Of a DNA stretch of 24,409 nucleotides, positions 3,001 through 21,474 are shown piece by piece. A model generated the notes under the pieces. It was not told where the DNA came from. It did not search any database and was given only the letters and a program-made list of their open reading frames with translations. Numbering within the stretch: the first letter of the stretch is position 1; each line of letters starts with the position of its first letter. Source of the stretch: a virus; the IMG/VR virus record IMGVR_UViG_3300000265_000020, positions 1-24,409 of that record; one strand, given 5' to 3'. Both the position numbers and the translations under genes were made by a program.

Positions 3001-6000
3001 CAACAGGAGTTTCTGTATTAACTATTCCTGGTCATGATATGACAGAGGGTAACTATATTAAACTCAAGGATAATTCCATCACAATGACATGTGCGATGGA
3101 TAATAATCAAACGCAACATACATATCCACGCCCTACTGATGCTAATTCTGGACAGTGGACGCAAATTATTTCCACTACAGAATCTACAGTTACTGTTAAC
3201 GTTGGTGTATCTGGTCCTGATGTTACTTTTACCCCACAAATAGGAACTACATATGATTCCACTTCGGGTGAAATGGTAATTGAAATTGGAGCACATACTT
3301 TAAGTGTTGGTGAAGGAGTTGTTCTTCTTGACAATTCATTCACATTCACTTGTGCTCAAGACGGTAATCTTACACAGAATACTTATCCACGTCAAGGACA
3401 AGATCCTTTTGCTGGAAGATCTATTCCAATTACTGCAAGAACTGCAACTACAATTACAATTAATGTTGGGGATGCTGGAACTGCATCTGGTGTGGCTCAT
3501 ACATTTGTTTCTGCTAATCCTAATGCAGTTCAACATCTACCACAACGTGCTCATACTTTTGTCAGTGCAGCAACCAACTCTGTTAAGTATGGTGTTGCAG
3601 CAGAAACATTTATCGATGCTGAACGTGACGAAGCAGCAAGAGTATTTACGGAAGTTAGAAACTTAATTCCTGATATTTTAAGAAGAAATACTATTACTGG
3701 TTTAAGTATTGCTAATGGATTCACTCAAGTCATTGATACGACAGTTACAGATGACTGGGATACTCCAGCATGTGCAACTGCTATTTCTGCAGTTCAATCT
3801 GGATTAGATACGATTATTCAAGCAATTGGTACGGATGCTGGTGTTGGCAACTTAACTGGAATTACCAGAACAGAACCAACACAACCATCGACATCTGATG
3901 TATTGCCTCAACCTGGTGGATATACTCCAGGTAATTGTTCTGATGTTGTATCTACAGTTAATACTCTTATTAGTATTATTTGTGATTCTACAGCAGCAGG
4001 AGATCTATCATCTCTTCCCCCAGTAGATAATGGTCTTTGGGATTGTGCTAATGTTCGAACTTCTATTGAAACATTATCTGATATTTTTTCAGATGCAGTT
4101 CAATTTGGAACTTTAAATGAACTTCCTGTTCAATCTTCTGGTGGTTATTCCACAGATGCTACGCAATCTAAGTGTTATAGAGACGTTTCTTATATTGTTG
4201 ATGCTGTTGTTAATGACTTAAGACTTGGTGGTAACATCAATAGTATTCAAGCTGGTGAAGCATACTTTGTTGGTATGAATTTAGAATATATTGATGGCGA
4301 AAAATCTGAGACTCTGGATGCTTGGAGTTATGTTGGAAACATGGCAATCGCAGCAATGCGTAACTTTGATTTCTTGGCATTTAATTGTGGCATTACAACC
4401 GGATCTGCAATTGTTGATATTGGTGATACTAGTGGTGTTCTAATTGGAATGGAAGTGGTTGAATATGATAACAGCAACGTTTCTAACCCTGCATATGTAA
4501 ATGGTCTTTTGCAAAGTGGATCAACTCCTCTTTATACTTCTATTCCTGAAGGGACATACGTAAAGAGTATTGTAAGCAGTAGCACAATTGAACTTGGAAC
4601 TAAAAACTCCAGATTATCTGTTGGATCTTTAGTTAATGCCTTACAAACAAGCACTAGCATCGATTTATATTTCTCATTTGGAAATGGTCAATGGGCAGAT
4701 ACACTACCTAAAACTGTGGTTGTTGGACCTACAGGAACTGGTGCTGATGTTATTCAAGATACGTTAACTTCTCCTACTCGTCGCGAATGTGCTCCAACTG
4801 CATCTGCTATCACTACTTTGATTGGTAATATCAATACTATTATCAATAGTGGTGTTGGTAGTGTTGCTAGACAAGAACCAACTGCTGGTATTGGGGCATT
4901 CACAAATAGAGCAACTGTATTTACAATTGATACAACAGGAACAGGTGCTTCTAATCCACATGATTTTGAAACTGGAACACCTGTACGACTTGCTCCTCGT
5001 CCTCGTTTTGATACAGTAACTAACAAATATGTTGATGTTGATAAGCGTCTTATTAGATTGCCTAATGGTTTTGAGACGAACAGAACTTATTATGTAATTG
5101 CTCCTGGCAGAACAACAAAACCAGCAGATTATTCTGATACTACTTTATTCAATGGTAGTGATCAAACTAAATTAATGCTTGCAACTTCTAAAGAGAATGC
5201 TGCAGCAGGTATTTACATCTACTCATCTGAATCTAATAGTATTGATGCTAATGTAGAGATTGATATCTATCAATTTGTTCTCGATCAAAGTTATGATCTT
5301 CATGAATACGAAGGTTCAATAACTACAACAGTTGAAGGTGGAATTCAAACAAATGTTTCCAATATTTTTGATGTTCCATTTGCTTCTGTAACCGAGCAAA
5401 AAGTATTCTTTAGACCTACTGATGGAAGTTCTTTACCTCTAGTTAGTACAACTGATGCATCTAATCCGGAAATTGCCGTTACCGATGTAACTAGTGCAGA
5501 TATTGGTAGAATTAATCCAAACAAAGAATTCTTTGTTAGATATCAAAATAGTAAAGTCTTTACAATTCATATAACTAAAGCAGATTCTATTAATAATGTA
5601 AATCCAGTAAGGTTTATTGGTGGTCAGAGTCTTAAGTTTAATGTTTATGCTAACAAACGTAGAAGTCCTGTTAGATTTGATCCAGGTTTCCAGTTAGATT
5701 CTGTTACTACTGGTAAATGGTATTTGCAATGTATTGACGAAGGTTCTAGTACTATTCTTCAAGATACTAGAGAAGAAAATATTTTCTGGAGAATTAAGCA
5801 ATCTGATTATAGTGATAGAGCAAGAACAACTGATTCTTGGTTTATCAGAACGGAAGACGAGAGAAAAGCAGAAGATAGAACATATAAGATTCGTTATGTC
5901 ATTCCTAGTTACCTTGAGAATGCTAGAGATCCTATTAATGGATTTGTTCTTAAAACAAGAACTGATGATACTCGTAGGTTAGTTCCACAAGTTGTAACTT

Positions 6001-9000
6001 TAAAACCGGTTGTGGGTAATGTTTATGGTGCTAGATTTGAAAACCCTGTTCAAGCTGGTGAATTTATTGGTCAGACTACACAACAACTTGGTGGTTTAGC
6101 AAATGAACAATCTTATGATCCTTATAGAAAAGATCAAACTAATAGTGGCACTGAGTATAGAAAGTTTGCTAAATTCTCATCTGGATTGCAGGCAACCATT
6201 CAATCTGCTCGTTATGTAGAAGATCCTATTGATTCTACGATTAAATATTTACAACTGAGTCTTGTTGACCATACTGTTGATAGTTTAAACTTCCCTGGTC
6301 TTAGAAACGAACAGTTTACTACTATTCCAATTTCTGCTCCTCAAGGTGGAACATTTGTAACTAATAAAACAGCAAACATTGCTTCTTCTCAGATTCAATG
6401 GACTGGTTATTCCTCTGGTCTTGCTAACATTCATGCATATCTAACCATTAATGGTTTTCACTACTTAATTGTTAAAAATATTCGTGGTGGAAAACTTGAG
6501 TATAGTGAGTTTTCAAATACTAGATTTACACAAGGAACGGTATTTGCTGATATGCTTGATGATCAAGACATGGGCAAATCGTTACCTTTAAAAACACTAA
6601 TTGGAAAAAATTATCCCCAATATTTTTACAAGCAAAACGGCGCTAATGTTTATACCATTACTCCTGGTGATCGTATTACTGATGACGATGGTATTGAATA
6701 TTTTGTTGATAGTGTTGCAGATGCAGGAGTTATCGAAGATACTTTCTATGTCTTTAGTTATGAAACACTACAACGTAGAATTTCAGGTCAGCAAGATGGT
6801 ATCTATTATCTTTCTTGCTTACGTGGTAACATTTCTCCATTCCCAACAGGTGCTGGTGTTGCAGAGAACTTTAAAAAGTTTAAATTCTCTCAACCTGTAA
6901 GTAGACTATTCCCTTTAAACTATAAGAATGATCCACTTTGGTTCCAAAAGAATGGAACAACAGCAGAAGAACTTAACTTTGCTTCACAACAATTAGATCC
7001 ACCACCAACATATTCTGCTGCTGACAACTATGTTCATGGTCTTGTCACAGTTAATGATAATAAGAATTCTGTAACTAGGGAATTAGTTGAAGATTTTCTT
7101 AATAACCCAGCATTTATTATTAACACATATACTGGTGTTAATAAAATTGGAGCACAGGAAGGTAATGCAACTTCTGGTTCCGAAGATAGATTAATTCCTA
7201 TTGTTGGCGATAGTCGAGTATTAGTTGATCAACGTTATTATGTTGAACTTAGAAGACCTTCTATTGCTCGTGCTGGCAATCACACGTTTGAGTATCTTGG
7301 ATTCGGTCCAGGAAACTACTCCACAGGTCTCCCAGCGCGTCAGGAAGTTGTCTTAACAGCTGAAGAAGACTTCTACGCACAAAGTAAGAAAGAAGACGGT
7401 GGTATCGTCTTCTACACGGGTCTAAATTCCAACGGTGATCTCTATATTGGTAATCGTAAGATTAATGCTATTACAGGTGAAGAAACATTCCTTGAAGCAG
7501 CAGTTCTTCAAGATAGCGAAGATGAAAATGATTCTATTGGAAACTTAGTTACATCTTTTGATACTCCTGTAACTTTCAATCAAAATATCACGGTTGTTGG
7601 TGGAGATGGAACCTTACAAAATGTTTTCCAGTCACCATTAATTGTTTCGGTACAAGATAATGATCTTACTGAAATTAGAGATTCTTTAATTATTCGTTCT
7701 AATGTATCTTCTGTTGATCCGGTAACTCAATTTGAGCAAGATGAATTACTAGACAGAACATCGTTCTCTAATCCTGGTTCTCCATTAGATGGAGATATTA
7801 GAATCAGTAAGAATAGAATTAATGCTGCTATTTTCGGTTGGAATCCTAGAGGAAAGGGTCAAAAATATCAGATCCAAACTCATACTACTAATGGTGCTCC
7901 TTCAAACATTACACCAAACAATAATAATACTATTGCTGCTGGTGGTGATAGACTATTCCTTAATCAAGTAACTAATTATAGTGGTGTTCAACCATCCTCT
8001 GGTGATATTTTATTCAAAGGAAAGGAGTTAGGCAAATCTGGATCAATTGGGTGGACACTTTGTAATTTCTTCTCTGATATTGCAACTAATCAAATTTTCA
8101 GTATTGAATTTAATGGAACAAATGTTGTTAAGTTGACATTTATTCAACAGGGAACTGGACTTCCGATCCAAAATAATGCTATTGGTTTAGACTCTGGTTC
8201 GCAAATTAGATTTTCTAATTATCCAAACCCATTGCTTAACGGAACGTGGACAGTATTCAGTCCAAATGGAGATCCTTTCTTACCAACTAATAACTATATT
8301 CAATTCCAAATTAATGATAATATTACAATTGAAACTATTAGTTGGAATGGCGCTGGAGGTATTTTAACACAATCGGCATCTACTCTTGTAGAATTTGCTA
8401 ATTTTGGTTGGAAAGAATTTGGAGTTATTGGTGGTGAAGCAATCAGAACTGAGACTGAAACTATTGGTGACTATAAGTTAGGTGTTAATACTATTGCACG
8501 TTCTGCTCATGAAGCATCTCAAAATGCATTTGTTTCTGTTGAAACAGGACCAAGAGCAAACTTAGATGTTGTAGGCACTGCATTCATTAGTGGTAAGAAA
8601 ATTAATTCTTACTTAACGGAAGTTGGTAACGTTAAAACTGAAACTAATCAAGATAATGCATTTTTGGTTGGTGGTGATAGCACAACACCAAATGATCCTG
8701 CTGTGTTGAGAGTGATGACTACCAATGGCGGTAGGTTGGGCATTAATACATCTCTTGGTGATACTATCAATCCTTCGAATAATCTTGATACTGATTTTGT
8801 TGTAGTTGGTGATTCTAGAATGCAGGGTAATTTGAACCTTGCACTAGATCTTCAAGTTAATGGTGGAGATATTACAAGTACAAATGGCACATTTAACTTT
8901 GTAAATCAAGGACCAACTATCTTTAATGCTGCTGGTGATGCCACTCAAGTAAATATATTTGGTGGAGCAACAGGAGAGCAAACTATTAGAGTTGGTAGCG

Positions 9001-11423
9001 GATCAACTAACCAAACATTATTAATTGGTGAAGCAGCTGCTATTGGAAACTTAAGAATTCACAGAAATGTGACTTCTTCTACAGTTGAGATTGGAACTTC
9101 TGATAATAATACGACATCTATTTCTAGAGTATTCCTTGGTGGTGCATTTGAATCACGTTCAACTACAAATTCGATTGCAGAAATTAGAACATTCCAGACT
9201 AAGATCTTTGGTAATCTAGAGATAGGAAGTGGATATGGTTCAGGTCAAGATGGTCCAGCAACACTTTCTACTCGTTGTAGAGTTGCCAGCATATTTGCTG
9301 GAGATGAAACAAATACTGTAAATCTTGCAACAAATGCAACTACATTTACTCTTGGTTCTACTGGTGGAACAACTACAATTAGAAATACCTTAAATGTTCT
9401 TGCTTCTGCAATTGTTGAAGGTAACATTAGACTAGATGGTGGTTTAAATGCTGGTATTATCAAGGTTTCAAGAGGTAGATTTGGAACGACACCGGTTGCT
9501 CACTTAATTGCTGGTGTTAATAATCCAAATATTGATTTCTATAAGTATAATGCTACTGGAAAACTTATTGATACTGCAGGTGTTTCTCCTTGGGGTGGAA
9601 CTAACTTCTTAGTTGCTGGTGGACAGGTTGCATCTATTGATACAATTACTGGAGACAATGATAATTCTAGGGTTGTTAGCAACTACCCATTCGTAACTGC
9701 AACTAGTAGTGGTGCAGGACAGGGAGCATCATTTACAGTTATTGTAAGATCTGATTTTACTATCGATATTACAATTAATAGTCCTGGTGAAGGATATTCT
9801 GTTGGAGAAATTCTTACAATCACTGACACACAATTAGGTGGTGGTGGAGCTGCAGATATCACATTTAGAGTTGCTCAAGTAAATTCTGGTGGATCTACTT
9901 ATTTCTTACCAATTACTACACCAGCAACATCTGATTTTAGAGTTGGTGATCTTTTGCTTATTGATAGAGAAGATGCACAAAGTCCTGAAGTTGGTGGAAA
10001 TAGAGATGAAGCGCAAAGTGAAATTGTTAGAATTGAGGGTCTAGCAAACGTTGCAAATGCTGCAGATCCAAATGGATATCGACTAATTGTTTCTAGAGGA
10101 CAAGAAGGAACTACTCTTGCAACTAATCATCCCGATAATTGTGTAATCGCAAGACTAGAAAAACAGTCAAATGCTTCTTATATTACTGGTTCTGATCTTA
10201 ACAACAACGGTGTTTTGGATGAACCTTTATCTGGTATTGGTGGTGGTTCTGTTGATGTCAATATTGGTGTTGCTGAATTTGGTGGAACTTTATCTACTAG
10301 AGATTTTATTAGACTAACAGGAACTGAATTTGTATCAATTGTTGAACTTATTACTACTTCACCTCAGACATTAAGTGTCAATGATGGTGGATCTCCTGCT
10401 GCTGAAGTATTCAAAGTAGAATCTACTACTGGTGATACTTACATCTTTGGCGACATCCTTGCCGGATCTGGATTTAATAAGTTTACTGTCAATTCTGAAA
10501 CAGGTAACACTAATATTGCTGGAACCTTAACAACAGAGAATAGTATCACACTTAATGGTGCTGGTTTAGCAGGTAATGAATACTTTAAGATCACTAATGG
10601 TGGTCCTTATGTTGATCCGGATCCTACTAATAATATTCCTTTAGTAACAACATTTGAAATTGATTCTGCCAACGGTAATATTATTAACCGTGGTGGAAAT
10701 ATGCAGTTCTTCAACCTAGCGGGTGATACTTTAAGACTTGATTTTGTTAATTCTTCTGGGGATTTTAAGGTATTTGGTTCATTCTCTGCTTTAGGATCAG
10801 GTGCTAGTAGATTTGGTGGTCCTATTATTATTGGTAACGTATTTGGAACTGATAATAATACAAATGAATTTAAATACAATGAAGATTGTGATTTAACTAT
10901 TAATGGTGGAGATCTCACAATCAATAGTGTTATCAATGGTTCTGCAGTAGAGACATTTAAAGTTTCTAATAATGGTTCTCTTAAAGTTGCTGGAATTGAT
11001 AACTACATTTCAAGTAGTGGTGGTGAACTTTGGTTATATGAAAATAGTGCAATTATCCAAGCAGAACAAAATAGAAATTATTTTGTTAATTGCCAAAACT
11101 CTGTAACGTTAATTAAATTGCCACCAGATGCTCAAATGGGTGACACTATTAGTATTATAGATACTAGTGGTAGTCTAACATTCAATCAGACCTTGGTTGT
11201 TAGAGCACAAGATGACATCAGTGTTCAAGGTGATAGATCAAATACTGGATCTAACATGTTAGTTGGTATTCCACCTTCAAGTTATGCTGGATTTAATGGT
11301 GGTGAATTAGTAGTACAAACACCAAATGCAGCATTCACATTAGTTTTTGCTGGTTCTACTACTGCTGGAGGAAATCCAGGTGCTGCTGGCAATCAAGTCG
11401 GATGGTATCTAAAGGACGTATAA
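1..11423 (+). CDS. Giant virion structural (tail fibre-like) protein, 5'-partial
   Basis: The reading frame is open from the first complete codon at base 3 to a TAA at 11421-11423, giving at least 3806 residues. An in-frame ATG at 444 is internal, because the coding pattern continues upstream of it. Numbering codon n as position/3, the layout is as follows. Residues about 120-270 hold a Trp/Gly-rich segment (W130) and a beta-helix-like stretch of Asn/Ser/Gly turns. Residues 663-1411 hold four copies of a Lys-Cys-x-Arg-Asp...Gly-Gly-Asn unit. Residues 997-1170 hold two tandem 87-residue repeats with a TYPR motif. A segment around 2410-2510 (RAGNHTFEYLGFGPGNYST) resembles one I recall from other marine cyanophage structural proteins. 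Fibre-like turns such as GTAFISG occur near 2856, and a beta-rich cap ends in GWYLKDV. No enzymatic motif is visible. It is probably a host-recognition or baseplate-associated fibre. Virion location is inferred from composition and from the fibre genes downstream. Confidence 0.85.
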   Translation, partial: LSDSRVIESLTLNDATTIPSIAASTSEIEVTTKTDHGYFAGQFVAISNTNIDSVLEGIFPIKSIDQNDPRKFTYEVAIVVSAIGTSIASGDTISVDTTPALGQNAQTLAEVDSVESASPYVFNVSIRSTWGICGIWANGLKATGFKSMVIAQYTGVSLQKDDRAFLRYEEYSNTWNQASLTDAFATVPYHAKGDSYWKDDWRTFHVKASEDAFIQNVSIFAVGFADHFLMESGGDMSITNSNSNFGNTSLHAIGFKGFAFNQDKGGFITDIIPPKRVVENSSTEKKVQYYTIDIKGTVSDSTNYTKLFLGSEDIVTPDARPAVTLDGFRIGAKSSEKLYVRLDPAVSGGAEIFNVSLQPTGFVKYVAAPSILNPSGTAINNVNADAANLIESNRKMIQEEVFGYILEKYPRLQNISYVNPGRDPNANRFFDGANLIINNRTEIVNEVITSTSQYDTSSPITSDDVREMVDAITEDIRDGGNSNIIALTKTYFNGIGQINKYANKVSTVMWAIARTRDLCKKAIGNLLTVKANLYDPNPNSALTGYSNLPIGNITAGSIGSDNVNGVTIDSSSTIDPASRYRETWNLIQSNRDYILDNALAEIAVYDETPFFSFPGDPSETTRSRFKTAYRLIRRNKDDAQSYAINQIQTQFPSFVFPGGSSTKCRRDIGYFIDAVAMDVFLGGNLWTRTFISKYFESGGQSWITGGLQGEESQSNFGFNAARDRLIEAVSNQLSSGYTDTTVSPGEAVYGDGNGDIANTNSAACNDVQNAISSLTSIVTQVVSDGNTDSISVSTNPNYVTPTSRVLQTGESKCRRDIGYIVDAVKQDLWFGGNAYSVTAAKAYFDASQTPISNGLLGEESQSIVAFKRASDAINLAINNQLYYKDNTITLDQVGDPPIVSDMNADAYDMVLDNKNFLAFEGYERMLSAFPSYTPQTTNTAQDCKDDVINVLEEVMYDVKFGGNARAYDSAEIYITNVMPYFGASKRTKEFTPTNVAYDPATGVSVLTIPGHDMTEGNYIKLKDNSITMTCAMDNNQTQHTYPRPTDANSGQWTQIISTTESTVTVNVGVSGPDVTFTPQIGTTYDSTSGEMVIEIGAHTLSVGEGVVLLDNSFTFTCAQDGNLTQNTYPRQGQDPFAGRSIPITARTATTITINVGDAGTASGVAHTFVSANPNAVQHLPQRAHTFVSAATNSVKYGVAAETFIDAERDEAARVFTEVRNLIPDILRRNTITGLSIANGFTQVIDTTVTDDWDTPACATAISAVQSGLDTIIQAIGTDAGVGNLTGITRTEPTQPSTSDVLPQPGGYTPGNCSDVVSTVNTLISIICDSTAAGDLSSLPPVDNGLWDCANVRTSIETLSDIFSDAVQFGTLNELPVQSSGGYSTDATQSKCYRDVSYIVDAVVNDLRLGGNINSIQAGEAYFVGMNLEYIDGEKSETLDAWSYVGNMAIAAMRNFDFLAFNCGITTGSAIVDIGDTSGVLIGMEVVEYDNSNVSNPAYVNGLLQSGSTPLYTSIPEGTYVKSIVSSSTIELGTKNSRLSVGSLVNALQTSTSIDLYFSFGNGQWADTLPKTVVVGPTGTGADVIQDTLTSPTRRECAPTASAITTLIGNINTIINSGVGSVARQEPTAGIGAFTNRATVFTIDTTGTGASNPHDFETGTPVRLAPRPRFDTVTNKYVDVDKRLIRLPNGFETNRTYYVIAPGRTTKPADYSDTTLFNGSDQTKLMLATSKENAAAGIYIYSSESNSIDANVEIDIYQFVLDQSYDLHEYEGSITTTVEGGIQTNVSNIFDVPFASVTEQKVFFRPTDGSSLPLVSTTDASNPEIAVTDVTSADIGRINPNKEFFVRYQNSKVFTIHITKADSINNVNPVRFIGGQSLKFNVYANKRRSPVRFDPGFQLDSVTTGKWYLQCIDEGSSTILQDTREENIFWRIKQSDYSDRARTTDSWFIRTEDERKAEDRTYKIRYVIPSYLENARDPINGFVLKTRTDDTRRLVPQVVTLKPVVGNVYGARFENPVQAGEFIGQTTQQLGGLANEQSYDPYRKDQTNSGTEYRKFAKFSSGLQATIQSARYVEDPIDSTIKYLQLSLVDHTVDSLNFPGLRNEQFTTIPISAPQGGTFVTNKTANIASSQIQWTGYSSGLANIHAYLTINGFHYLIVKNIRGGKLEYSEFSNTRFTQGTVFADMLDDQDMGKSLPLKTLIGKNYPQYFYKQNGANVYTITPGDRITDDDGIEYFVDSVADAGVIEDTFYVFSYETLQRRISGQQDGIYYLSCLRGNISPFPTGAGVAENFKKFKFSQPVSRLFPLNYKNDPLWFQKNGTTAEELNFASQQLDPPPTYSAADNYVHGLVTVNDNKNSVTRELVEDFLNNPAFIINTYTGVNKIGAQEGNATSGSEDRLIPIVGDSRVLVDQRYYVELRRPSIARAGNHTFEYLGFGPGNYSTGLPARQEVVLTAEEDFYAQSKKEDGGIVFYTGLNSNGDLYIGNRKINAITGEETFLEAAVLQDSEDENDSIGNLVTSFDTPVTFNQNITVVGGDGTLQNVFQSPLIVSVQDNDLTEIRDSLIIRSNVSSVDPVTQFEQDELLDRTSFSNPGSPLDGDIRISKNRINAAIFGWNPRGKGQKYQIQTHTTNGAPSNITPNNNNTIAAGGDRLFLNQVTNYSGVQPSSGDILFKGKELGKSGSIGWTLCNFFSDIATNQIFSIEFNGTNVVKLTFIQQGTGLPIQNNAIGLDSGSQIRFSNYPNPLLNGTWTVFSPNGDPFLPTNNYIQFQINDNITIETISWNGAGGILTQSASTLVEFANFGWKEFGVIGGEAIRTETETIGDYKLGVNTIARSAHEASQNAFVSVETGPRANLDVVGTAFISGKKINSYLTEVGNVKTETNQDNAFLVGGDSTTPNDPAVLRVMTTNGGRLGINTSLGDTINPSNNLDTDFVVVGDSRMQGNLNLALDLQVNGGDITSTNGTFNFVNQGPTIFNAAGDATQVNIFGGATGEQTIRVGSGSTNQTLLIGEAAAIGNLRIHRNVTSSTVEIGTSDNNTTSISRVFLGGAFESRSTTNSIAEIRTFQTKIFGNLEIGSGYGSGQDGPATLSTRCRVASIFAGDETNTVNLATNATTFTLGSTGGTTTIRNTLNVLASAIVEGNIRLDGGLNAGIIKVSRGRFGTTPVAHLIAGVNNPNIDFYKYNATGKLIDTAGVSPWGGTNFLVAGGQVASIDTITGDNDNSRVVSNYPFVTATSSGAGQGASFTVIVRSDFTIDITINSPGEGYSVGEILTITDTQLGGGGAADITFRVAQVNSGGSTYFLPITTPATSDFRVGDLLLIDREDAQSPEVGGNRDEAQSEIVRIEGLANVANAADPNGYRLIVSRGQEGTTLATNHPDNCVIARLEKQSNASYITGSDLNNNGVLDEPLSGIGGGSVDVNIGVAEFGGTLSTRDFIRLTGTEFVSIVELITTSPQTLSVNDGGSPAAEVFKVESTTGDTYIFGDILAGSGFNKFTVNSETGNTNIAGTLTTENSITLNGAGLAGNEYFKITNGGPYVDPDPTNNIPLVTTFEIDSANGNIINRGGNMQFFNLAGDTLRLDFVNSSGDFKVFGSFSALGSGASRFGGPIIIGNVFGTDNNTNEFKYNEDCDLTINGGDLTINSVINGSAVETFKVSNNGSLKVAGIDNYISSSGGELWLYENSAIIQAEQNRNYFVNCQNSVTLIKLPPDAQMGDTISIIDTSGSLTFNQTLVVRAQDDISVQGDRSNTGSNMLVGIPPSSYAGFNGGELVVQTPNAAFTLVFAGSTTAGGNPGAAGNQVGWYLKDV
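1989..2054 (+). repeat. GGN repeat, copy 1 (22-residue core)
   Basis: Encodes residues 663-684 of the giant protein: Lys-Cys-Arg-Arg-Asp-Ile-Gly-Tyr, an IDAV-like helix, then Gly-Gly-Asn. The similarity to copy 2 continues for about 50 more residues through GLQGEESQS to a helix ending in NQL, so the full unit is about 70-75 residues. Confidence 0.85.
2436..2501 (+). repeat. GGN repeat, copy 2 (22-residue core)
   Basis: Encodes residues 812-833. It starts KCRRDIGYIVDAV and ends FGGN, nearly identical to copy 1, and is followed by an AKAYF segment and LLGEESQS. It lies 447 bases after copy 1. Confidence 0.85.
2826..2891 (+). repeat. GGN repeat, copy 3 (diverged)
   Basis: Encodes residues 942-963. 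It starts DCKDDV and ends KFGGN. The Cys, the acidic pair, the helical spacing and the Gly-Gly-Asn are kept, but the first Lys and the IVDAV part are changed. It lies 390 bases after copy 2. Confidence 0.75.
2991..3512 (+). repeat. Tandem pair of 87-residue TYPR domains
   Basis: Two in-frame units of 261 bases (2991-3251 and 3252-3512) sit end to end in the giant gene. Each starts Tyr-Asp-x-x-[TS]-Gly. Each then has a G-H-like turn, a DNS-[IF]-T-x-T-C-A strand with an aligned Cys, a TYPR motif and a [TI]-[VI]-N-V-G strand. The alternating pattern suggests small beta-sandwich domains. The DNA copies are well diverged, so the duplication is not recent. Confidence 0.75.
4170..4235 (+). repeat. 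GGN repeat, copy 4
   Basis: Encodes residues 1390-1411. It starts KCYRDVSYIVDAV and ends RLGGN, followed by GEAYF and a shortened GEKSE segment that matches the GEESQS part of copies 1 and 2. It lies 1344 bases after copy 3, beyond the TYPR tandem repeats. Confidence 0.8.
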
Positions 11424-13612: not shown

Positions 13613-15619
13613 ATGTCACATCAACAGTTTCCGGTAATATCGTATAAAATTCCAAAAATCATTGAATATCAATGTAAATCTTTTGATGTTTCCTATTCTT
13701 TAGAAAATGCGGAACTTGGTTCCACAATGGCAATAAGATATCAATATTCTGATAGTAAAAAATTAGTTGAAACTTTAAGTTTAGATGGAGACACTGGAAT
13801 AGTGTCTGTAGAAGTAGAATGGAGTGTACAAGGACCTATATCTCTTGAAATTTCTTTTTCTGCTGAGGGAGAGGGTGGTGTTAGTGCATCTGCTCCTGAA
13901 CTTATTGGTGTAAATAATGTTATAGCATCTCCAGGAACACCTACAAAATATAAGTATAAATCATTAGCAGAAGAAAATGCTATTGTTCCTATTTCAGAAG
14001 CAAAAGTAGCAAAATCTGCTACACCAGAAGAATTGGCGGCATTAATTAACTGTATTTCTGTTATTGATGAAACATCTAATAGTACATATTCAACTAATGC
14101 ATCTTTACTTAATCAAATATGGAATGGAAGTCCGGCAGTTGTTGGTGGTACTGTAGATAATCGTAGAGGATTTAGGACAGCATTTCCATTTAGAACGTTC
14201 TGGATTTTAGATCCAGAACTGCAGTCTACATCCCGAAATATTAATTTGCCTACAGCATATAATGGAGATCCTAATACAAATGGTCCAATTCGTGTTAATC
14301 GCGATGAAGGAAATGCTGCTAATAGATCTGAATGGTTTGATATTTGTGGATTAAATAATGTCCCTGCAGGAACATATGTGTCTTTATGGATTGATATTTC
14401 CGGTTCAATGAGACTCTCTACAGTTCAGGCATCGTATGATCGTTTTATATCACGTTGTAATGCTGCAGGATTAATTGTTGTTCAAAACTTCAGTGCCGCT
14501 GGTGAAAGATATATTGAACAACATATTGCATATTTTCCTCCTAGTGGTAGATTAAAAATTGTTAATAATGCTGGAAATGAAGTAGATACTATACAAATTA
14601 TATCAGGAGAAACCGTTACATTAAGATGGGTTATATTTGGTGATGTTGCTGGTGTTACTATTTCTCCTAATGTTATATCTTCTACAAATCCTCTTAATTT
14701 TGCCAATGATATTACTGTAAGTCCAACTCAAAATACAACATATAGTTTGATTGCATTTGGAATTGGAAGTGGAAGTTTAAGTGATAATGTTACAGTTAAT
14801 GTATATGTTCCTCCTATAATGTTCATGAACATTTCAGGAACTGATCCTATTATTAGAGGATCTTGTACAACTATTCAGTGGGGTAAAATTGAGGGTGATG
14901 CAAGTAGAGTTGTCTGGACGGCAGGAAACATTTCTAGTGCAAATGTAACAGGATCGGAACAGGTTTGTCCACAATCAACAACAACTTTCACTGGAAAATT
15001 GCAATTTCGTATTGGTGGAGTTGTTATACTCGAATCTCCAGAAGTATCAGTAACAGTTACTGTATACAATCCACCAACTGCTAGTATATCTTCTCCAAAT
15101 TCAGTAAATTATAATTCTGGTGGGGCAAATGGTAACGTTAATCTTTCATATAGTTTTAGATATGCTAACACTAGCGTAGAAATAACACCAACATATAGCT
15201 ATTATACTGCAACTGGAGGAACAGAAGATGTTGTTGGAAGTGCAGTTACTATTACTCCAATAAGCACTAGTTCAGAATCCGGACCATTAATTACAGGAAG
15301 TGCTAATATACCTACACCATGGAATGATTTTGGTCCATATCAAATTAGTTATAGTATTTCAGCAATAGGCGATGGTGGAACAGTATTTGACTCTAGTGAT
15401 ACTACAGTTGTTATTGATCAACTACCAAATAATTTTAATATTCCTGAGAGTGAAGATTTGATCAAAAATGAACAACTAGTACTTAGTCCAGATACTGAAA
15501 TCTTAACCGAACTTATACTCATAGACGATATTGATATTCCTGTAGAAATTAAAGCGAATCGGGCAATTTTGGTTGATAAGAATAGGCAAGAGGATTGGAT
15601 TAAAGTTCGATCTATTTAA
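13613..15619 (+). CDS. Structural protein with MIDAS-like motif and Ig-like domains
   Basis: The protein is 668 residues. Residues about 185-305 form a domain with a strand entering WIDISGSM, that is D261-x-S263-x-S265, which matches the metal-binding MIDAS motif of von Willebrand factor A domains. A predicted helix (TVQASYDRFISRC) and a strand (GLIVVQNF) follow, but only about 45 residues separate the motif from the next domain. A full vWA fold is therefore absent, or the domain is a short variant. Two Ig-like repeats follow at about 313-401 and 402-488, each with a T-[LI]-x-W strand, a TTTY/TTTF turn and a closing Thr/Val strand ending in PP. A third beta-rich domain spans about 489-600. 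No collar domain or HxH motif is present. It is probably an adhesin-like virion component. The MIDAS function is inferred from the motif alone. Confidence 0.7.
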   Translation: MSHQQFPVISYKIPKIIEYQCKSFDVSYSLENAELGSTMAIRYQYSDSKKLVETLSLDGDTGIVSVEVEWSVQGPISLEISFSAEGEGGVSASAPELIGVNNVIASPGTPTKYKYKSLAEENAIVPISEAKVAKSATPEELAALINCISVIDETSNSTYSTNASLLNQIWNGSPAVVGGTVDNRRGFRTAFPFRTFWILDPELQSTSRNINLPTAYNGDPNTNGPIRVNRDEGNAANRSEWFDICGLNNVPAGTYVSLWIDISGSMRLSTVQASYDRFISRCNAAGLIVVQNFSAAGERYIEQHIAYFPPSGRLKIVNNAGNEVDTIQIISGETVTLRWVIFGDVAGVTISPNVISSTNPLNFANDITVSPTQNTTYSLIAFGIGSGSLSDNVTVNVYVPPIMFMNISGTDPIIRGSCTTIQWGKIEGDASRVVWTAGNISSANVTGSEQVCPQSTTTFTGKLQFRIGGVVILESPEVSVTVTVYNPPTASISSPNSVNYNSGGANGNVNLSYSFRYANTSVEITPTYSYYTATGGTEDVVGSAVTITPISTSSESGPLITGSANIPTPWNDFGPYQISYSISAIGDGGTVFDSSDTTVVIDQLPNNFNIPESEDLIKNEQLVLSPDTEILTELILIDDIDIPVEIKANRAILVDKNRQEDWIKVRSI

Positions 15620-18727: not shown

Positions 18728-19387
18728 ATGAATCCTCCTGAAATTCCTGATTATAGACCTTTTGAATTGATGCAAGATGAAAATATTACCAAATCCAATT
18801 TTACAGATTTTATAGGAGTTTGGGATAATTTTATGCCCAAACCACTATGTGAACAAATAATAACTTTTTGTGATATGATGATGGAAATGGGTAGCATACC
18901 CACCACTCCAGATGACACCTCTTCAGAAGTTTTTCAATCACAAGATTACTACCAAGGATCTTTGAAGAGATGTGATAGTGCATTTCTTTTAAATTACAGT
19001 AATAAATTATTGTGTTATCAGATAAACAGTATTTTAAGATCTTGTGCCAATCATTATATTTACAAATATAATTCTTTGAGAAATACTGGATTAATTTCTA
19101 CAGATATTAAAGTTCAAAAAACACCTCCTGGTGGTGGTTATCATATTTGGCATCACGAAAATGCAAATTTAGATCATGCTGCTAGAGAATTGACATGGAT
19201 GATTTATTTGAATGATATGCCAGATGGCGAAGCAGAAACTGAATTTTTATATCAACGTAGAAGAATAAAACCAACAGCAGGAACTGTTGTTATATGGCCA
19301 GCAGGATATACACATCCACATAAAGGAAATACGGTGATGACAGAAGATAAATATATTTTAACAGGTTGGTATATCAAAAACAAATAA
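18728..19387 (+). CDS. 2OG-Fe(II) oxygenase family protein 1
   Basis: The protein is 219 residues. The C-terminal half matches the double-stranded beta-helix of 2-oxoglutarate/Fe(II) dioxygenases. The motif GYHIWHHEN gives a candidate H142-x-E144 iron pair, then come LTWMIYLND, a PTAGTVVIWPAG strand and a distal His in THPHKG (H196 or H198). The usual Arg that binds 2OG is replaced at the expected place by K208 in DKYILTGW. Both HxE and Lys are known variants in the superfamily, so activity is possible but not certain. The gene begins two bases after the 1021-residue fibre gene. Members hydroxylate proteins or small molecules, and the substrate here is unknown. Modification of the fibres is an inference from position. 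Confidence 0.75.
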   Translation: MNPPEIPDYRPFELMQDENITKSNFTDFIGVWDNFMPKPLCEQIITFCDMMMEMGSIPTTPDDTSSEVFQSQDYYQGSLKRCDSAFLLNYSNKLLCYQINSILRSCANHYIYKYNSLRNTGLISTDIKVQKTPPGGGYHIWHHENANLDHAARELTWMIYLNDMPDGEAETEFLYQRRRIKPTAGTVVIWPAGYTHPHKGNTVMTEDKYILTGWYIKNK

Positions 19388-19392
19388 AACTC

Positions 19393-20337
19393 ATGATAAA
19401 AAGAAACCTAATCCTAGAAATTGATTTCATCAATAATGTTATCGCTTGGGGAAACTCCCCTTCAGATCCAAATCTTGGGGCAATTGCTGACAAAAAGTAT
19501 GGATTCTCTGATGAACTGAAGGGTAAGTTTTTAACCCAAGTTGATTCATTTTGGCATAATGAAAATGACCAATTGCAATTTTTTCAGTTATTTAACACAG
19601 GAGAATATTTTTGCCAAAGAAAAAAGAAAAAAATCAACTTCTCGAATGATAGTTTTTATTGGATTCAATATGAATTCAAAGCAGCATCTACTTCTCAAGC
19701 AGAAGATTTAAATCAACAACTAACAACTTTCTATAGTGTTGTTAGGGAAGTTAAACAACTTAATGCAGAAAAAATTATTGCTAAAGTTGATCATGAGGCA
19801 GCATTCTTTGAACAAAGATGGTACAAAGTAAGAAGAGAAAAGCAAGTTATGCTGTCTCAAAGTGATTGGAGAGTGTTACCAGACATCGATGATTCGTATG
19901 AAGGAGAAAAAGCAGAATGGATTGCATGGAGATCTTATTTGAGAAATATGGTGATCCTTTCACCAAATGATGAGTCTTTTAATAACTCTGGTCTTACTTG
20001 GTTTAAACATGTCATGAATACGAGATATCCAATTGACCCTGTAAATTATAAAAAGAAATATCCCAATGGATTAGATGAAAATGGAAATGCTGCACCAGCA
20101 TTTATGGATGCAAACGATTTGAATCAATGGACTAAGTATGATTCTGTTGCATCTTCTGATTTCTATAAGAGTAGAGAGCAAAATGTTGTTGCTATGGCAG
20201 GAACAGCATTTGTCGGTAAGAAGAAAATTGATCAATCAGTGAAAGATTTAATGAAACTACTAAGAGTTGAGGATGAAGTTCCAGTAAATTGGAGTGAATA
20301 TTATGTTGAAGACTCTGAATTGGAGGAAGATTCTTAA
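19393..20337 (+). CDS. Tail-assembly-chaperone-like protein
   Basis: The protein is 314 residues. A central segment has the pattern seen in phage fibre or tail assembly chaperones of the XkdW/DUF4376 type: VRREKQVMLSQSDW (D158-W159), then an acidic linker, then AWRSYLRNM (W179, R180, Y182, R184). Around it are a charged helical region (about 85-150) and a tail rich in Asn, Lys and Trp. The last 20 residues are strongly acidic. I chose the ATG at 19393, five bases after the preceding stop. An in-frame ATG at 19366 would overlap the oxygenase gene and adds a poor N-terminus. Such proteins assist folding or trimerisation of fibres, which fits its place behind four fibre genes. The rest of the protein is not recognised. 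Confidence 0.65.
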   Translation: MIKRNLILEIDFINNVIAWGNSPSDPNLGAIADKKYGFSDELKGKFLTQVDSFWHNENDQLQFFQLFNTGEYFCQRKKKKINFSNDSFYWIQYEFKAASTSQAEDLNQQLTTFYSVVREVKQLNAEKIIAKVDHEAAFFEQRWYKVRREKQVMLSQSDWRVLPDIDDSYEGEKAEWIAWRSYLRNMVILSPNDESFNNSGLTWFKHVMNTRYPIDPVNYKKKYPNGLDENGNAAPAFMDANDLNQWTKYDSVASSDFYKSREQNVVAMAGTAFVGKKKIDQSVKDLMKLLRVEDEVPVNWSEYYVEDSELEEDS

Positions 20338-20972
20338 TGATATATGAATTTGAAATTTTAAATGATGAAAAATTGAAATATGTTATGTCATATTACAAGT
20401 ATCTAGAATGGGGAGACGGTAAGGATAGTAATGCAAATAGAAGTATAAAAAGGTGCAATACTTCTTATTATGGTGATGCTGCTGTGCATCTCAATAAATA
20501 TTGCACCAATGCACTATCCGAAAAATTAACATATCCATATTCTCTTAAAAAAATATCCAATTGTTATTTTTCTGAATTTAATACTAAAGACTATTACAAC
20601 TATCATCATGACCATAACCCATGTGGTGGTGTTAATGCTCATTGGAGCGTAACATGTTTTCTTAGTGATCCAGACACTTACGAAGGAGGAGAATTAGTAC
20701 TTCAAATTGGTGGGAAAGAAATTGAATACAAATTGCAATCAGGATTTGCCGTAGTATATCCAACTGGTATTTTGCATAAAGTAAATGAAATAACAAGTGG
20801 ATCTAGGAAAGTATTTTGTGCATGGTTGCAATCTTCTATATCTAGTAAATTTATGAGATCTCATGTATTGGATTATGGCATACATCTTATATCAAAAGAT
20901 CTTACTAAAGAAATGGGAGAATTTGATCGTTTTCGTATGGAGTTAATACGTGAGTTTTCTAATGACCTCTGA
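20337..20972 (+). CDS. 2OG-Fe(II) oxygenase 2 (PKHD/prolyl-hydroxylase-like)
   Basis: The protein is 211 residues and has a complete catalytic set. H90-x-D92 lies within YNYHHDHNP, the distal His is H147 in TGILHKV, and the 2OG-binding Arg is R157 in SGSRKVFCAW. Between them come a VTCFLSD strand and YEGGELVLQIG, typical of prolyl-4-hydroxylase-like oxygenases. It should use Fe(II), O2 and 2OG to hydroxylate an unknown target. The ATG shares its A with the TAA of the chaperone-like gene (TAATG), which implies coupled translation. The C-terminal 40 residues form a charged helical extension. Confidence 0.88.
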   Translation: MIYEFEILNDEKLKYVMSYYKYLEWGDGKDSNANRSIKRCNTSYYGDAAVHLNKYCTNALSEKLTYPYSLKKISNCYFSEFNTKDYYNYHHDHNPCGGVNAHWSVTCFLSDPDTYEGGELVLQIGGKEIEYKLQSGFAVVYPTGILHKVNEITSGSRKVFCAWLQSSISSKFMRSHVLDYGIHLISKDLTKEMGEFDRFRMELIREFSNDL

Positions 20973-21474
20973 CATTATAAAATATGACAATTTTCTAAAC
21001 CTAGAAGATTTTAAAAAAATACAAGACAAATTATCAGAACCAAATTGGTATTATGGGCATGGTTCATATCGTCCAGGACAAAGTGGCAGAAAAAATGTAT
21101 TTTGGTGCATGAGTCTACAAAAAGATGATTACTTCACAGAATATCTTCTAAATATCATTGAGGAAACGACTCAGGAAGAATACATTTTACATGATGTTTA
21201 TGCTAATGGGCATACATTTGGCACAATGGGAGATTTCCACGTTGATTGGAATGATATTACCGGTAGAACATTTTTATATTATGCAAATGCTAATTGGAAA
21301 CCGGAGTGGTGCGGTAAAACTATGTTTAATGTGAATGGAAACATTCAATATTTTGATCCTAAACCAAACTCTGCATTGTTTTTCCCCGGTTGTATACCAC
21401 ACTGTGCTGAGGCAACTTCTAAATTATTCACTGATCTCAGAGTAACTATTGCTTGGAAACTGCAACTTAAATAA
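20962..21474 (+). CDS. 2OG-Fe(II) oxygenase family protein 3
   Basis: The protein is 170 residues and carries the full 2OG-Fe(II) set: H93-x-D95 in GDFHVDW, distal H147 in GCIPHCAE, and R160 in LRVTIAWKL. The fold order is preserved: a TFLYYANANW strand, then MFNVNG, then a PKPNSALFFPG strand before the distal His. The sequence is quite different from oxygenases 1 and 2, so this is not a recent duplicate. I chose the ATG at 20962, which overlaps the upstream gene by 11 bases. An in-frame GTG at 20950 is the alternative start. It is a predicted hydroxylase with unknown substrate, cotranslated with oxygenase 2. Confidence 0.85.
   Translation: MTSDIIKYDNFLNLEDFKKIQDKLSEPNWYYGHGSYRPGQSGRKNVFWCMSLQKDDYFTEYLLNIIEETTQEEYILHDVYANGHTFGTMGDFHVDWNDITGRTFLYYANANWKPEWCGKTMFNVNGNIQYFDPKPNSALFFPGCIPHCAEATSKLFTDLRVTIAWKLQLK

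Follow-up and report, generated by a model that had tools for sequence, protein, structure and literature searches.

On balance, our data favour the view that two adjoining modules of a virion structural protein, here termed A and B, together make up a composite metal site of MIDAS-like type at the head of a fibre, fused into a single chain in the phage studied here and split between two proteins in relatives. The protein of 668 aa is encoded on a virus record of 24.4 kb (24,409 nucleotides, the window) from a relative of the T4-like cyanophages. Residues of approximately 141-308 would constitute one functional head of two modules, in which module A would contribute the acids D152-E153, located where its first strand ends, and module B the D-x-S-G-S-M loop, located where a strand ends and a helix follows. 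The two loops would together complete one site for a divalent metal (Mg2+ or Ca2+), carried on the tip of the Ig-like stalk, and its ligand would be acidic or a glycan; in the split phages the modules would lie on the C-terminal ends of two proteins, and the site would be completed in trans. By computation the pairing of A with B is obligatory, the modules are fused in some phages and separate in others, and their loops are altered jointly, from which we infer that the acidic loop of A and the DxSGS loop of B are one site; this implies physical contact between the modules, and an acid combined with D-x-S-x-S points by its chemistry to the binding of a divalent metal. The new part of this picture is module A, which lies upstream of the motif and is absent from the earlier, sequence-only reading of this DNA.

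The gene of the 668-aa protein (window positions 13613..15619, + strand) is the positional counterpart of T4-LIKE GC 737 in S-PM2 and Syn1, and the phrog_29022 profile ('virion structural protein') matches the protein at E 3.2e-171 over residues 123-668, that is, head and stalk. A counterpart gene is present in similar order in S-PM2, Syn1, S-RIM44 and others, with the label T4-LIKE GC 737 where clusters are given, and the best matches among phage records are 45-47% identical to the window protein. Upstream, the gene is flanked by those of a fibre-like protein of 3659 aa and of two collar/short-tail-fibre proteins; downstream lie genes for a short tail fibre protein of 1021 aa, for 2OG-Fe(II) oxygenases and for a tail assembly chaperone. 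With such neighbours, the earlier placement of the gene in a phage fibre cluster is correct. Three 2OG-Fe(II)-oxygenase-like genes are found around the tail assembly chaperone (18728-19387, 20337-20972 and 20950-21474), and the top PHROG label of the last one is 'DNA endonuclease V', apparently a naming error. One study reports virion proteomics of S-SM1 and cites that of S-PM2 and Syn9 (PMC3037559). The N-terminal residues 1-136 (13613..14020, +) are poorly conserved (median 15% identity, n=14) and have low model confidence.

The MIDAS-like loop D261-I-S263-G-S265-M266 (14393..14410, +) follows the hydrophobic strand of residues 255-260, as can be read directly from the sequence and as had been described. 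A DxSxS match alone is weak evidence, with 0.41 matches expected in the shuffled 668-aa protein (P of at least one match 0.34) and a second DxSxS at residue 25, while DxSGS is expected 0.03 times. The motif is taken as real because it is conserved: D.SGSM is a signature kept in 128 of 132 distinct homologous B units, Gly and exact D-x-S-x-S spacing included, in a sample biased to close relatives. These relatives were gathered from IMG/VR and phage records by scans of which two kept the best 80 of 137 and the best 80 of 100; one of the six patterns in one search was WIDISGSM, the patterns of two other scans were free of the motif, and B matches covering less than 80% of the profile were removed before counting. 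The exceptions are DNSSSL (second copy in L130), DKSGTI (L208), DDSNAT (L002) and DGGTSS (L001, which is P-SSM2). A cellular origin was set aside, relatives of B being found neither in plasmids nor, in scans that depend on short-pattern matches, in genome contigs. In the 3659-aa protein, the stretch 'SIIDTSGSL' (11160-11177, residue 3573) also follows a hydrophobic stretch near the C-terminus, where it looks by its context like a beta-rich fibre tip piece; given this decoy, a strand followed by DxSGS is by itself no proof of a MIDAS.

Module B as a whole (residues 220-308; 14270..14536, +) is delimited by homologue alignment and predicted model as a beta-alpha-beta unit with the MIDAS-like loop. 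It is 47-70% identical to that of the window in 31 relatives (median 55%), and no other folded part of the protein is as well conserved, the medians of the Ig-like domains being only 32-39%. Besides the motif, W241, P251 and E298 are kept in 132/132 distinct units, D231 in 131 and T270 in 123. E298 (14504..14506, +), in the loop after the second strand, was considered as a third metal ligand, a role that is weakened by its persistence in units without DxSGSM; it is therefore probably structural.

The structure of B was predicted from 207 matches, reduced to 75 by a redundancy filter and completed with the window (76 rows), and residues 215-313 come out as one beta-alpha-beta unit (pLDDT 86, pTM 0.79) with strands 255-261 and 288-294, helix 268-284 and an additional short helix. 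Since this model of B alone holds only two strands, these must pair, and the linking helix implies that they are parallel; the motif loop and E298 would then lie at the same edge of the unit. In the full-length AlphaFold model (48 rows), which is confident over approximately residues 141-600, the strands 145-150, 195-200 and 222-227 precede the unit, the last being a strand of B that is missing when B is modelled alone. The strongly constrained motif is predicted to sit where a beta-strand ends and a helix follows, which is the geometry of a MIDAS loop and supports the earlier reading on this point.

The vWA domain has a doubly wound sheet of six strands and approximately 180-200 aa, with the MIDAS strand first, and its MIDAS is completed by a Thr (loop 2) and an Asp or Glu (loop 3) later in the same domain. 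In the predicted models of our protein the MIDAS strand is followed by one helix and one strand and then by an Ig-like domain, the other strands preceding it, so that there is little room after residue 294 for vWA loops 2 and 3, and the MIDAS strand would not be the first of its domain if A is included. The earlier remark that the residues behind the motif do not suffice for a complete vWA fold was right: the unit is over by about residue 308, and the first Ig-like domain starts there. The proposed kinship with vWA/integrin I domains was not supported: the predicted unit is two-stranded, Pfam VWA models give no match in the window protein, and within the family VWA_2 is matched in 3/76 members and VWA in 1/76, all sub-threshold (best E 0.019). 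Full vWA membership was consequently rejected on sheet extent and family profile. It could also be imagined that the fused order (acid strand, two more strands, MIDAS strand) represents a circularly permuted vWA-like fold; the alignments to vWA speak against this, since B placed before A scored 25.0 (Prob 31%) against 36.0 for B alone, and the DE of A failed to align with the loop-3 acid of vWA, and we retain it only as part of the speculative split-domain reading given below.

A related alternative sees in module B by itself a vWA domain that is degenerate or halved (betaA-alpha1-betaB) and acts as a stand-alone metal-dependent adhesion module, with A having its own job. The hhalign comparison of B (76 rows) with bacterial vWA domains (nine of ten used, L230 left out) gives a Prob of 83% and a score of 36 over strand-MIDAS-helix-strand, against at most 10.4 for shuffled controls, and the best PDB sequence match, 4rck (E 0.069), is on strand-MIDAS-helix. 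When the six motif columns are masked, however, the score falls to 6.2, inside the shuffled range, which means that the likeness is the motif. The two-stranded model also speaks against a halved vWA, and such a module would leave both the obligatory presence of A and the joint changes unexplained; we regard this alternative as improbable. The idea of a minimal domain stands in part: the unit is small and has Ig-like domains behind it, but in the group of the window it is always preceded by module A.

A further alternative holds that the D-x-S-G-S-M loop is metal-free and, in a small Rossmann-like unit, caps a helix or binds sugar or phosphate, in the manner of SIS and periplasmic sugar-binding proteins. 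Foldseek/VIA searches of the PDB with the unit by itself gave nothing that reaches E 0.001; the leading matches are weak and mixed, coming from the Rossmann-like LacI/periplasmic sugar-binding proteins and from DhaK (all E > 0.05, highest VIA Z 5.0), and no vWA chain is among the weak matches listed, an absence that does not speak against a vWA fold. BFVD searched with the unit gives only family members to E 0.001. Pfam matches SIS in 2/76 members (E 0.0082) and Dak1 in 23/76 (E 0.0055), while SIS has no match in the window record or in the 668-aa protein. Against a metal-free loop stands the exact spacing with Gly in nearly all units, and hhalign scores KdsD (SIS) and DhaK, one sequence each, no higher than background, KdsD being the sole SIS control as GutQ, GmhA and GlmS were not picked up by the pattern. 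The likeness to SIS, DhaK and periplasmic sugar-binding proteins was set aside as weak in all three methods, and a loop of this kind appears unlikely to us. The unit may be called MIDAS-like as far as its sequence can tell, while its membership in the vWA domains is unsupported.

Module A (residues 141-214; 14033..14254, +) consists, by alignment and full-length model, of a strand (NCISVID), D152-E153, helices and a strand (RTFWIL). The pair D152-E153 (14066..14071, +), candidate acidic partner of the metal site, is kept as D in 118 and as E in 116 of 120 distinct A modules, in all of which a W and a P are also conserved. DE is kept in 63/63 fused A modules, and the signature C147, I151, D152, E153, F187, P192, R194, F196 and L199 in 32/32 fused rows. 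An origin of A and B as internal duplicates was rejected for want of evidence (hhalign 7.75, shuffled controls up to 13.1), and at the profile level A resembles neither B nor vWA significantly. Among five A-carrying tail proteins tested, three match phrog_3304 ('L-shaped tail fiber protein assembly') and two phrog_45 (tail tube). Tail-tube-like phrog_45 proteins with module A are encoded at L150:1888-2928, L152:1879-2928 and L201:1133-2797; the module is at the C-terminus in L152 and approximately 227 aa before the end in L201, and the gene in L150 comes after that of the major head protein. These proteins are possibly a modified tail-tube paralogue.

The two modules are paired in every unit or locus with enough flanking sequence. 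In fused homologues, A lies 5-17 aa (median 6) ahead of B in 63/63 units uncut by the contig start, and both fused-type units without A begin at a contig end. In the second, cap-type arrangement, B forms the extreme C-terminus of proteins with Calx-beta/Ig-like repeats, which themselves lack A, and A resides on a different protein encoded upstream, at its C-terminus or close to it. A cap-type pair of this kind is that of L205 (A 1092-1679, B 4567-6273). In 71 of 135 distinct B domains no more than 6 aa separate the domain from the frame's end, 69 of these 71 having EDW. The cap-type contigs are from other marine T4-like phages, with major-head-like, tail-tube-like and UvsW-like genes nearby in L150. 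Wherever more than 3.5 kb of upstream sequence is present, A is encoded on another upstream ORF (38/38 loci; 53/70 overall). The reverse test, starting from A and keeping the best 80 of 175 relatives, on contigs many of which are common to the B-started set, finds B in 41/41 loci with at least 5 kb downstream, out of 80 loci. Three of the 58 listed pairs (L261, L264 and L265, all with less than 5 kb downstream) were excluded as B, the matches being weak ones to another protein upstream of A. One pattern of the A-started search contained 'DE', so that altered A modules are under-sampled in it.

The motifs of the two modules are altered together. In 75 distinct cap-type A/B pairs, 57 combine DE with D.SGSM and 18 have both motifs altered, with no mixed pair; the altered combinations (A with B) are PD with DGGT-, DD with DDS-, SS with DNS- or DDS-, SG with PDAN, and DG with DKSGTI. 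Some of these alterations are mild, as 'DD' in A retains an acid and 'DKSGTI' in L212/L208 retains D.S.T. Homologues lacking the Asp and Ser residues had been named as evidence against the MIDAS-like reading; some without the Ser do exist, and it is exactly there that the partner module A has changed too. In a smaller pair set Fisher's test gives 3.4e-6 (4/4 versus 0/49), or 7.8e-4 when only two lineages are counted. When A+B are placed on a tree built with the motif columns left out, the altered pairs group into three clades of 9, 8 and 1 members, and by parsimony each motif changed three times, with A and B changing on the same clades; 17 of the 18 are in two clades, maybe one, so that the independent events number about 2-3. 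This clustering is what would be expected if the joint alteration merely reflected shared ancestry of one diverging subclade of P-SSM2-like phages, without any contact between the modules. The rest of the modules is nevertheless conserved there (W, F, R and P in A, W and E298 in B), with a whole-module identity to intact modules of 54-69%, which makes the altered pairs look like loss of a site and not general decay. As L212/L208 are a separate case, and given that every one of the 75 pairs is either wholly intact or wholly altered, ancestry alone seems to us a rather unlikely explanation.

The earlier recognition of Ig-like domains behind the motif is borne out by AlphaFold, which gives confident beta-sandwiches at residues 311-600. 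Three such domains form the stalk (residues 309-605; 14537..15427, +), placed by the predicted model and by fold matches; in Foldseek/VIA these include three-Ig tandems, e.g. titin I67-I69 (Z 9.1, rmsd 4.3, 244 aligned), and also the GhpA grappling-hook protein. The C-terminal tail (residues 606-668; 15428..15616, +) has low model confidence and is conserved (median 54%, n=20). In relatives, the Ig-like part and tail (residues of approximately 329-668; 14597-15616) are shared by neighbouring fibre-cluster proteins with other N-termini (L085:6305-9940, L122:3088-4791 and 6246-7646, L101:1219-2958 and L118:1279-3018), and judged from this shared sequence they are a common carrier with exchangeable heads. 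The last approximately 30 aa of the carriers (15536-15616 in the window; L050:4612-4704 in S-PM2, PIQV..DND....NW..LREI) weakly resemble the start of B (GPI.VNRD.....DWF.IC).

With regard to function, to our knowledge little has been learned about the receptors of marine T4-like cyanophages or about the chemistry by which these phages adhere. One contig, L130, encodes an 883-aa protein (4653-7301) with two A-B copies, the second B being DNSSSL, together with PA14/GLEYA domains, which are sugar-binding or adhesive. The fibre cluster, the Ig-like stalk and this PA14/GLEYA company lead us to favour adhesion, and adhesion to the host is plausible, the ligand being perhaps the host surface or another part of the virion. 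The head is, on the other hand, more conserved than the stalk, which is unusual for a host-range receptor-binding tip and speaks against a strain-specific one. For comparison, in host-adapted populations of cyanophage S-TIM4 most mutated genes with an ascribed function are reported to be those of tail fibres and baseplate (PMC6224464). The main rival on function is a joint between virion proteins, in which a cap-type fibre protein docks with its B end on the A end of a tail protein, the ligand lying inside the virion and the fused form being locked. The location of split A and B at or near the C-termini of different tail proteins and the status of the head as most conserved folded part are both in line with a joint, whereas the fused proteins have nothing left to join; we consider an assembly joint possible, though the less probable reading.

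If A and B do complete one site, it is tempting to speculate about a natural split domain, in which two virion proteins carry half a metal-dependent adhesion site each, become active once the halves meet, and have been fused in one lineage, although we put this forward only tentatively. Mg2+ and Ca2+ are abundant in seawater, and a split site may serve as a joint or sensor that is gated by these metals and couples fibre docking to host contact. A composite site would name the exact residues (D152, E153, D261, S263 and S265) in a widespread fibre-cluster protein and predict that adsorption or assembly depends on a divalent metal; the P-SSM2-like phages would be natural variants without the site. 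One functional site split over two virion proteins, and fused in relatives, would also help to predict contacts between phage-tail proteins. Judged by title or abstract start, no paper describing this domain was found in the open-licence literature, nor one joining cyanophage with Calx-beta, or von Willebrand factor with phage tail and MIDAS. The vWA proteins of phages or archaeal viruses described in other reports, namely CobT (PMC8651126), a MoxR-vWA pair (PMC7824862) and a VWA protein of Vi01-like phages (PMC10892097), are different from the window protein.

The window protein can be compared most directly to the phrog_29022/T4-LIKE GC 737 proteins of S-PM2, Syn1, S-RIM44 and ACG-2014e/i/j, which have the same A-B head, Ig-like repeats and C-terminal tail and, in the regions viewed, the same adjoining collar/fibre genes, while the window protein differs by its N-terminal extension of 136 aa. 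In P-SSM2, B (PSSM2_215) and A (PSSM2_216, phrog_3304) stand alone in directly adjacent genes instead of being fused, and unlike in the window the motifs are altered, with DGGTSS in B and PD instead of DE in A. With the vWA/integrin I domains (Pfam PF00092, PF13519) the unit shares D-x-S-G-S at the C-end of a strand and the helix next to it; it differs from them in having two strands, in having its conserved acids before the motif (module A) or just after the second strand, and in a site that seems to be shared by two modules and, in relatives, by two proteins. A parallel in site construction is the Bdellovibrio MIDAS adhesin Bd0875, in which an acid from another loop (E213) lies near D-x-S-x-S (PMC11003981), much as the acids of A are here proposed to approach the loop of B.
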